NCBI GenBank assembly: GCA_021286765.1 | Contig: JAJTBS010000004.1 | Coordinates: forward strand, 215,427 to 279,426 | Reading direction: 5' to 3' | DNA from: Holophagaceae bacterium | GTDB lineage: Bacteria; Acidobacteriota; Holophagae; Holophagales; Holophagaceae | Length of the DNA: 64,000 nucleotides | Notes under the pieces: model-generated | Databases searched by the model: none | What the model saw: the letters and a program-made list of their open reading frames with translations, nothing else | What the model was told of the DNA's origin: nothing | Shown here: positions 43,216 through 45,736 of the stretch, piece by piece | Layout: every line of letters starts with the position of its first letter | Position numbering within the stretch: the stretch's first letter is position 1 | Position numbers and translations under genes: made by a program

Positions 43216-43260
43216 GAGTCCTTCAGCGCCTTGGTGAATCGAAGTTGGAGAAGCCCCGCG

Positions 43261-44505
43261 ATGGATGCCCCCGCCCCTGAACCGCCGGTCCACCCCAACA
43301 CCGAGATGGGACCCGGATCCGCGACCAAGGCCTGCCCCGCCTGCGGGTTCGTGCAGGAGGACTGGGCCCGGATCTGCCCGAGGTGCGAGTACCTCTGGCC
43401 AGATCCGAACCAGGATCCCGATGGCTCCCAGGCCCGGCTGGCCCAGTTCCAGGACCAGCTGGCGGCGAAGGCGCCTTTCCCCGCGCTGACCCTCGGCATC
43501 ATCTGCGCAAACGCCGCCATCTATCTCGCCATGCTGCTGACGGGCGTTCACTTTCTCGAACCGCGCGTGGCGGACCTGCTGACCTGGGGCGCGAACCTGG
43601 GATCGGCCACCACGGCGGGCCAGTGGTGGCGCCTGTTCACCTGCACCTTCCTGCACATCGGCCTCATCCACATCCTGTTCAACATGTACGTCCTCTGGGA
43701 CATCGGGCGGTTCATGGAGCGCCTCCTCGGCGCGGCCGGGTTCGCGACGGTCTACGTCCTGGCGGGCCTCGCGGGAAGCATCGCCTCCATGTGGTGGAAC
43801 CCCTACATGGTCTCGGCGGGCGCGTCGGGCGCGATCTTCGGGCTCTATGGTTGCCTCCTTGGCTACCTGCTGGCCGGAGCCCGGGACATCCCCGGGGACG
43901 TGGCGAAAAACCTCCAGAAGAACGCCCTGGTGTTCCTGGGGTACAACCTGCTCTGGGGGCTCACCCACCGCGGGCTCGACATGGCCGGCCACCTGGGCGG
44001 CCTGCTGGGGGGACTGGCCTGCGGGTTCGTGATGGCCAGGCGGCTTCAGGCCCACGGCCTTGAGGCCAGGCCGCGGGTCCATGCCCAGGTGCTGGCCTTC
44101 GGACTCGCCCTCCTGGCCCTGGCCGCGGCCCTGCGCCCGAAGACCGTGGATCTGCAGCAGGAGCTCCGCCGGTTCTCGGACATGGAGGACCGGGTCCAGA
44201 CCAGGTACAGCCAGGCTCTCCAGAGGGCGCGGTCCGGGGGTCTTTCCGATTCGGAGTTCGCGATTCTCATGGATGCGGAAGTCATCCAGCCCTGGCATTC
44301 CGCCCGCCTCCGGCTCGAGGGCATCCATGGGGTGCCCAAGGACCAAGCCAGGCTGCTCGCTCGGATCGAGCAGTATGCGGACCTCCGTGAACAGGCCTGG
44401 ACGAAGCTTGCGGAGGCCCTTCGGCTCCGGGACCTCGATGGAATCCAGCAGGCGAACGCCTTGCACGCGGAAGCGGACCTCCACGCCAAGAACCTCCAGC
44501 ACTAG
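43261..44505 (+). CDS. Rhomboid-family protease with N-terminal zinc ribbon
   Basis: A 414-residue intramembrane serine protease candidate. Residues about 25-45 form a zinc ribbon (ACPACGFVQEDWARICPRC, two C-x-x-C pairs). The rhomboid domain (about 75-275) has WWRLFTCTFLHIGLIHILFNM, the catalytic Ser in VSAGASGAIFGLYG and the catalytic His in DMAGHLGGLLGG. A long soluble, charged C-terminal helix region follows (about 290-410, LQQELRRFSDMEDRVQTRYSQALQR). Rhomboids cleave membrane proteins within the bilayer. The start at 43261 was chosen because it begins the acidic, low-complexity tail typical before the ribbon; an upstream TTG at 43231 is possible. Confidence 0.88.
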   Translation: MDAPAPEPPVHPNTEMGPGSATKACPACGFVQEDWARICPRCEYLWPDPNQDPDGSQARLAQFQDQLAAKAPFPALTLGIICANAAIYLAMLLTGVHFLEPRVADLLTWGANLGSATTAGQWWRLFTCTFLHIGLIHILFNMYVLWDIGRFMERLLGAAGFATVYVLAGLAGSIASMWWNPYMVSAGASGAIFGLYGCLLGYLLAGARDIPGDVAKNLQKNALVFLGYNLLWGLTHRGLDMAGHLGGLLGGLACGFVMARRLQAHGLEARPRVHAQVLAFGLALLALAAALRPKTVDLQQELRRFSDMEDRVQTRYSQALQRARSGGLSDSEFAILMDAEVIQPWHSARLRLEGIHGVPKDQARLLARIEQYADLREQAWTKLAEALRLRDLDGIQQANALHAEADLHAKNLQH

Positions 44506-44545: not shown

Positions 44546-45736
44546 TCACCTTCCGGAGCGGCGGGAAGGCAGGTCGGGGTACATCTTCGACACGCAGTCC
44601 GGGCAGATGCCATGGGTGAAGGTGGCCGCGGTGTGGGCCTGCACGTAGGATTCGATCTGATTCCAGTACCCAGCGTCATCCCGGATCTTCTTGCAGCTTG
44701 CGCAGATGGGCAGCAGCCCGCGCAGTTCGTGGACTTCCTCCAGAGCCCGCGCGCGTTCGCGCTTCCAGGCCCGGTGGAGCAGCCACGCCAGGCCGGAGGT
44801 GAGCAGGGTGGAGAGACCGGCCAGGCTCCAGCTCCAGCGGGACACGGTCCGCCAACGGGCCAGATAGTCCTCGGAGCCCAGGCCCACATGAAGGTAGAGC
44901 GGATGGGGCCCGACTTTGGTAAAGGCGAAGATCCGCTCGACACCATCGACCCCGCCGCGGGCTTTGTACACCCCCGAGGTGCGCCCCTGCTGGAACAGAG
45001 CCTGGAACGTCGGCGAGATGTCCCGCCTCCCCACCACCTGCCCAAGCGCCCTGTTGACGGGGTACTTGGCGTAGAGGTCCAGCTGCCTGCCCCGCAGGGT
45101 CACCGTGCCGTGGGGGCCGAGGTTGATGCGCGACATCGATTGGGTGAACTGCTCAACCGTGATGGCAGCATAGGCCACTCCGGCGAATCCTCCCGCTGGA
45201 TGGTCGATGCGCCGCGCGAGGATGACCACCCACTGCCCGCTGATGCGCCCCACCACCGGCTCAGAGATCAGCAGGCCAGCCTCGGGATTCCGCCGGGCTT
45301 CGGCGAAGTAGGCGCGGTCGGCCACGCTGAAGGCGCTGCCTGGCTGCACGCCAATGCCGTGGTCGATGCGCCCCGCCGCATTCGCCGTCCGGATCGAGCT
45401 CAGCTCCGGAAACTGGGTGAAGAGGCGTGCAATGTAGTCGTTCAGTTCCGCGTCCCGGATGCCCCCAGTGCTCATCTGGCGGGTCATCTCACCCCGGAGG
45501 GCGAAGAGCGCCAGGTCGATCCGCTGGAGGTCGCCCGACATCTGGCGATCCAGCACCTGGACCAGGTTCTGGGCGGTACGGCCAGCGTCCTCCTCGGCGC
45601 GATGGAGGTGCCACTTCAGAATCACCACCGTGAAGGCCAGCACCAGGAGGTTCACCACGACGAGGACGCCGACCACGGTCCGGATGCCGCCGACCCGGTG
45701 GTCCGGAGGTCCTGGTGCCACCCCTCGGAATGCCAA
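44546..45736 (-). CDS. Cache-domain membrane sensor with C-terminal cysteine motif
   Basis: A 396-residue protein with a first membrane helix (about 19-40, VVGVLVVVNLLVLAFTVVIL), a periplasmic dCache-type domain (about 45-305, with TVTLRGRQLDLYAKYPVNRALG and FAGVAYAAITVEQF), a second helix (about 310-330) and a cytoplasmic tail of about 60 residues. The tail is the C-x-x-C, ...GYW...H..., C-x-x-C zinc-ribbon-like motif (ICASCKKIRDDAGYWNQ...GICPDC), which elsewhere ends PAS or receiver-type proteins. No kinase, GGDEF or methyl-accepting region is visible. It converges on the rhomboid gene. Confidence 0.8.
   Translation of the reverse strand: MAFRGVAPGPPDHRVGGIRTVVGVLVVVNLLVLAFTVVILKWHLHRAEEDAGRTAQNLVQVLDRQMSGDLQRIDLALFALRGEMTRQMSTGGIRDAELNDYIARLFTQFPELSSIRTANAAGRIDHGIGVQPGSAFSVADRAYFAEARRNPEAGLLISEPVVGRISGQWVVILARRIDHPAGGFAGVAYAAITVEQFTQSMSRINLGPHGTVTLRGRQLDLYAKYPVNRALGQVVGRRDISPTFQALFQQGRTSGVYKARGGVDGVERIFAFTKVGPHPLYLHVGLGSEDYLARWRTVSRWSWSLAGLSTLLTSGLAWLLHRAWKRERARALEEVHELRGLLPICASCKKIRDDAGYWNQIESYVQAHTAATFTHGICPDCVSKMYPDLPSRRSGR

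Follow-up and report, generated by a model that had tools for sequence, protein, structure and literature searches.

The output domain that seems to be missing from a dCache sensor of a Holophagaceae bacterium is, in our best reading, its own cysteine tail, a coil-driven module that serves many sensors. The sensor gene lies within a 64,000-nucleotide stretch of DNA, hereafter the window. We consider it probable that this tail is a small output domain, presumably holding zinc, that replaces the usual histidine kinase, GGDEF, or methyl-accepting (MCP) output and acts on one common partner. The modularity of the tail, its exclusion from kinases, its heptad-stepped linkers, and its use in SiaC-type diguanylate cyclases emerged directly from the computations presented below. 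The observation is wider than the sequence-only reading held: the tail turns out to be a module common to many unrelated sensors. Many receptors of Acidobacteriota and of bacteria of Desulfobacterota type would be annotated at present as sensors without output.

The gene occupies positions 44546..45736 of the minus strand, from a TTG start at 45736 to a stop at 44546, and its product of 396 amino acids is organized as TM–dCache–TM–coil–C4 tail. Its assignment relies on the open reading frame, on orthologues, and on a codon-usage gene caller that preferred this frame to the antisense ones. The first transmembrane helix (about residues 19–41, 45614..45682, minus strand) and the second one (about residues 299–321, 44774..44842, minus strand) were read by eye as hydrophobic stretches and agree with helices 13–65 and 288–336 of a low-confidence AlphaFold2 (AF2) model. 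Between them lies the periplasmic double Cache sensor (residues 48–281, 44894..45595, minus strand), recognized by Pfam through dCache_1 (PF02743, residues 48–214, E 1.5e-8), whose 35 bits fall short of the 45-bit threshold of the family, and through dCache_1_like (PF22588, residues 195–281, E 0.0012). Moreover, the protein can be aligned with other dCache-tail proteins along its length, which places it among the dCache_1 sensors. NCBIfam offered nothing beyond a weak similarity to the PhyK sensor region (residues 98–222). On the cytoplasmic side, a short signaling helix or coil (residues 322–341, 44714..44773, minus strand), supported by an AF2 helix and by the heptad-stepped linkers of REC-tail relatives, leads into the C4 tail (residues 342–390, 44567..44713, minus strand), which is conserved in alignments and has no family model. 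This tail of about 50 residues follows about 20 residues of helix and reads C-x2-C-x29-C-x2-C, with a first pair formed by Cys345 and Cys348 (44693..44704, minus strand) and a second one formed by Cys378 and Cys381, preceded by His375 (44594..44605, minus strand), both pairs being invariant in the tail alignments. The layout as a whole is that of dCache histidine kinases and diguanylate cyclases, in which the same TM–dCache–TM–helix order is found, but here the tail replaces the catalytic output. Indeed, Pfam searches up to E 10 found no enzymatic match in the protein, nor any HisKA/HATPase, GGDEF, HAMP, or MCP domain. The sequence-only reading had described the two helices flanking a dCache domain, the cytoplasmic C-x-x-C...C-x-x-C tail, and the lack of a kinase, GGDEF, HAMP, or methyl-accepting output, and each of these elements is borne out by the domain matches and by the four cysteines in place. 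A hidden enzymatic domain, for which it had proposed a sensitive profile search, was found neither in the protein nor in the tail with Pfam, NCBIfam, and PHROGs, and a hidden enzyme in the tail was therefore rejected.

The tail was conserved throughout the collection assembled from it. When the first 22 tails were aligned, C18, C21, W31, E35, H48, C51, P52, and C54 were invariant, and the conserved residues present in the window protein include W358, E362, and H375. The whole harvest, made by profile search at chosen places and not as a random sample, comprised 262 tail matches, 197 of them distinct. The CxxC..CxxC pattern is kept in 194 of the 197, a retention that is partly selected for because the tails were found by means of a tail profile, and the other three are stop-cut or fragments; the gap between the pairs is 29 residues in 188 of these 194. 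The search for the motif at the C-termini of other proteins, also suggested beforehand, agreed with the expectation that the tail usually ends larger regulators, given that 189 of the 197 distinct tails finish no more than 40 residues from the stop. No model for the tail was found in Pfam, NCBIfam, or PHROGs, and a sequence search of the PDB yielded no solved relative (best E 0.16). DUF3039 matched 17 of the 22 tails weakly (best E 0.0019), covering in the window tail only about 12 residues around a CxxC, and was taken as a chance match. No paper describing the tail was recognized in the full-text literature, mostly outside subscription journals, so that a description may be in print elsewhere. 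Judged by its sequence, the tail is an unnamed domain in its own right.

An AF2 model of the tail alone (19 rows, pLDDT 78.5) runs through a helix, a strand, the first CxxC, short bridges, a helix, a strand, and a second CxxC that starts the last helix, an order of elements that may recall a treble clef; a full-length model (pLDDT 65), in contrast to the tail-alone one, renders the first half of the tail helical, and the predicted fold is thus not a firm one. The ligand pattern makes zinc binding probable. Foldseek ranked PerR first, a protein with a structural Zn(Cys)4 site that also has two CxxC pairs, but the E value of 0.13 is not significant, and VIA-align reached at best a Z of 2.7, to Nmd3, among 198 chains compared. 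The fold searches thus yielded no convincing relative, and a family's absence from them carries no weight. Two cysteine-rich domains of similar placement, HalOD2 and TackOD1, have been described behind the REC domain of archaeal response regulators, with function unknown (PMC5847659). HalOD2 resembles the REC-tail proteins in this placement but has CxxC pairs 20–25 residues apart instead of the 29 that prevail in the tail, while TackOD1 spans about 200 amino acids with 11 Cys, in contrast to the C4 tail of some 50 residues. Neither was among the 25 families listed of the 33 that Pfam matched up to E 1, where HalOD2 would appear only if it has a Pfam model.

The domains attached to the tail are highly diverse. 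The inputs of 139 distinct tails, labeled with small home-made profiles, were PAS (31), propeller (27), dCache (20), REC (18), REC plus PAS (4), dCache plus PAS (1), and others (38), and multi-TM inputs also precede the tail. These classes agree with Pfam on 84 tail proteins, where PAS_4 (23), Response_reg (18), Reg_prop (7), dCache_1 (5), GGDEF (3), HAMP (3), GAF_2 (3), and TPR_12 (2) were found. By contrast, a histidine kinase domain was found in none of the 197 tail proteins with our own profile, the same that matches 39 of the 715 genes of the regions surveyed. On a tree of 137 tails, from which the two of the 139 lacking the full C4 pattern were omitted, at least 24 changes of input class are needed (four classes, 99 classed tips), versus a shuffled mean of 54 and a minimum of 47, although a domain this short gives a poorly resolved tree, on which changes are overcounted. 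Therefore, inputs have been swapped repeatedly, though not freely. When 21 REC-tail proteins were compared pair by pair, the tails had a median identity of 54% and the REC domains one of 30%, and in 197 of 210 pairs the tails resembled each other more than the REC domains did. A shared partner would be expected to keep tails on unlike sensors as similar as this. The arrangement is similar in kind to that of chemoreceptors, in which variable sensors end in one strongly conserved, helix-borne tip with a shared partner, the tips all touching CheA/CheW; the difference is that the window protein has no MCP domain and bears instead a C4 domain of about 50 residues, and that one tail-bearing metagenome-assembled genome (MAG), G332, showed no CheW.

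This diversity of inputs also bears on the idea of the tail as a nucleic-acid-binding zinc finger and of the protein as a membrane-tethered or REC-driven transcription regulator. A basic CKKIR beside the first Cys pair, scattered weak zinc-finger matches in Pfam, and the combination of a coil with a C4 finger, reminiscent of DksA, speak in its favor. However, most tail inputs are membrane receptors of a kind that otherwise drives kinases or cyclases, and as many as 19 sensors of one genome, sharing this tail, would all be given one nucleic-acid site, so that we regard this idea as improbable.

The helix that joins the input to the tail shows a regular register. Counted between the Lys of the KP motif in REC and the first Cys of the tail, the linkers of REC-tail proteins, obtained for 24 of the 31 REC-bearing tails, are 27, 34, 41, 48, 55, or 63 residues long, with one of 90, and that of L221 is 49 by hand count, its script value of 106 having come from a wrong KP anchor. 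Counting related proteins as independent, 22 of the 24 raw values and 15 of the 17 non-redundant ones are 6 modulo 7, and the exceptions (63 and the 49 of L221) lie one residue over the phase. The mean resultant length is 0.94 at period 7 versus at most 0.72 at periods 5, 6, 8, and 9, and the control, the number of residues after the last Cys, has no phase (R 0.27). Five of the seven distinct lengths fall in one phase, with p about 0.001 in a Monte Carlo test that took 16 of the 17 non-redundant values and left out L213 (90, in phase), whose linker is not a plain coil. The PAS-to-tail length is 35 in 32 of 42 cases, which cannot separate a heptad from other periods. In the window protein, 21 residues were counted by hand from a Trp of the second helix to Cys345, a value out of phase with the 27, 34, and 41 of three dCache-tail proteins, the helix boundary being uncertain. 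Heptad-stepped linkers are known in kinases and diguanylate cyclases, whose output is driven by a dimeric coil that rotates or shifts, and the heptad steps between REC and tail are therefore a mark of coiled-coil-driven output. The tail might instead be only a dimer clamp or a localization tag with no signaling role, as its small size and lack of a recognized catalytic domain would allow. Against this stand the heptad-fixed register, a conservation of the tail exceeding that of the attached REC, and the position of the tail as the only possible output of the REC proteins, which together make a mere clamp or tag quite unlikely.

In five proteins (L117, L159, L179, L253, and L256) the tail is followed by GGDEF. 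An ISDxYQ motif, degenerate in L159 as ISDAFE, precedes the first Cys by 32, 32, 32, 33, or 39 residues in all five, and a second ISDxYQ stands exactly 22 residues ahead of the GGDEF start motif DxLTG, also in all of them. SiaC contacts the stalk of Pseudomonas aeruginosa SiaD at residues that include I81, S82, D83, Y85, and Q86, and two such motifs are present (PMC8457831). Consistently, a SiaC homologue was found by phmmer in the reading frame directly upstream of all five genes, with PF09345 for three of them, and the upstream neighbor in L179 is SiaC by Pfam (E 8e-40); a DUF6272 gene lies close to the tail-GGDEF gene of L117, and L200 holds a plain SiaC-linked cyclase without tail. Thus, these diguanylate cyclases resemble those of SiaD type in their stalk motifs, their GGDEF, and their upstream SiaC gene, but carry the tail between two SiaC-binding motifs, whereas SiaD as described (PMC8457831) consists of no more than N-terminal helices, a stalk, and GGDEF. 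The motif is restricted to 5 of the 197 tail proteins; the window protein has neither it nor GGDEF, and no SiaC (PF09345) was found in the window genome (G000) or in five other tested genomes of its genus, all with tails. A stalk of the kind that carries GGDEF can thus carry the tail as well, alongside GGDEF, and this supports the tail's role as an output domain.

The tail lies in mid-chain in three further proteins outside the SiaC group. In L170 (4494-6572, minus strand) it stands between two sensor blocks, with PAS before it and three GAF domains after it; in L029 (3839-5452, minus strand) a GAF-PAS protein carries it ahead of a weak SpoIIAA-like (STAS) domain (E 0.068); and in L206 (1114-1884, plus strand) it follows an N-terminal domain without Pfam match and precedes about 60 residues. 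Such positions, between PAS and GAF in L170 and before GGDEF in the five Sia-type proteins, would suit a tail acting as a second input that senses redox state or metal and so tunes the protein, with dimerization of the whole chain as the output. The invariant CxxC pairs fit a sensor of this sort, as does the weak fold match to PerR. Nevertheless, the tails that end their protein (189 of 197) leave nothing after them to control, and the REC-tail proteins would be left without any other output, so that a second input appears rather unlikely, if somewhat less so than a nucleic-acid-binding finger.

Under the output-domain reading, binding of a ligand to the dCache domain would shift the second membrane helix, and a dimeric coiled coil would carry this shift to two paired tails, which would then present a changed surface. 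All tails of one genome would touch one common partner encoded elsewhere. The tails would dimerize, and a single common partner is most likely, given how closely the tails of very different sensors resemble one another within a genome. A bolder and tentative version is that as many as 19 or so sensors in a genome, with very different inputs, converge through fixed-register coils and one zinc output domain on a single hub protein, forming a system comparable to the chemoreceptor array but with receptor chains without kinase or cyclase, which would amount to an entire unnamed class of bacterial signaling. Naming the tail as the output would provide a tractable system, with one kind of bait, several sensors, and one expected partner, to which the SiaC-linked cyclases with tail plus GGDEF give direct access, the regulator that acts upstream of them being understood already.

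The neighborhood of tail genes was surveyed for this partner. No gene family recurs beside tails beyond generic signaling genes, REC (14) and HisKA (13) being the frequent ones among 119 immediate neighbors. These counts and the kinase counts that follow rest on the 66 tail genes kept by our own gene caller, which missed others. Kinases are enriched beside REC-tail genes (5 of 25, versus 9 of 276 genes at a distance of at least three positions, p 0.003), which is usual for response regulators, and beside non-REC tail genes their excess is not significant (8 of 101 versus 9 of 276, p 0.087). Family searches for CheW, SiaC, and GGDEF covered 20 chosen, not random, genomes. SiaC was excluded as a universal partner, being absent from G000 and five congeneric genomes, all tail-bearing. 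CheA/CheW is weakened in that role, not excluded, by the MAG without CheW. GGDEF occurs in every tail-bearing genome tested and also in the tail-free G269 and G263, and a link to c-di-GMP is thus not decisive.

The sequence-only reading had proposed contact with a separate partner, which remains the best interpretation, and had pointed to the neighboring hybrid kinase (49422) or HD-GYP protein (51699), for which no support was found. Both genes lie within about 8 kb of the tail gene in the window. Orthologues of the window gene were found at five related loci (L017, L018, L019, L020, and L185) with 68–87% identity, the closest named one, at 87%, being that of a Geothrix MAG, which marks the window genome as Geothrix-like. 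Between the gamma-glutamyltransferase (GGT) and HD-GYP genes, the hybrid kinase is missing in L017, L019, and L020 and present in L185, while the L018 contig is too short to show it. In a whole-genome search of MAGs, possibly incomplete, its orthologue (89%) was found only in G189, the other four orthologue-bearing genomes giving at most 32% identity. Since the orthologue is missing from four of these five genomes, and kinases show no significant excess beside non-REC tails, the window kinase is unlikely to be the partner. L017, L019, L020, and L185 all retain the HD-GYP gene, but GGT is kept in the same loci, as is aconitase where the contig reaches, so that its co-occurrence reflects general synteny; moreover, it stands several kb from the tail gene, in no operon with it. 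Transfer of the signal to either neighbor is therefore very improbable.

The orthologous loci also answered whether the tail is conserved, as the earlier reading had wished to see checked: it is present in all five orthologues, one of them stop-interrupted. This copy, in L017, has an in-frame stop at about 11069 between the CxxC pairs, an error of the MAG contig or the trace of a pseudogene. An arylamine N-acetyltransferase gene directly upstream of the window gene on the same strand is kept in all five loci, probably as mere synteny. Convergent with the tail gene, a plus-strand gene (43231-44505) encodes a rhomboid protease with an N-terminal zinc-ribbon-like stretch, which was unmatched in L017, L018, L019, and L020.

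In searches with the 22-row alignment, the tail turned up in 107 of the 297 genomes sampled across the phylum and in 52 of the 61 of the family. The window genome encodes 8 tail proteins, and the highest numbers per genome were 19 (G327) and 18 (G329). In a scan of genome contigs, tail loci were also titled Nitrospirae, Syntrophobacterales, Desulfobacteraceae, Deltaproteobacteria, and Geomesophilobacter. The phage records searched gave no tail match and the plasmid records one. A divergent tail with 30–41% identity lies on a contig classed as viral, which may be host DNA (L074, 3428-4027, plus strand). The plasmid match is a short unannotated frame with a degenerate tail (L201, 2968-3141, plus strand), near IS21 and IS91 genes on a plasmid of Dongshaea marina, and is perhaps a remnant in this gammaproteobacterium.
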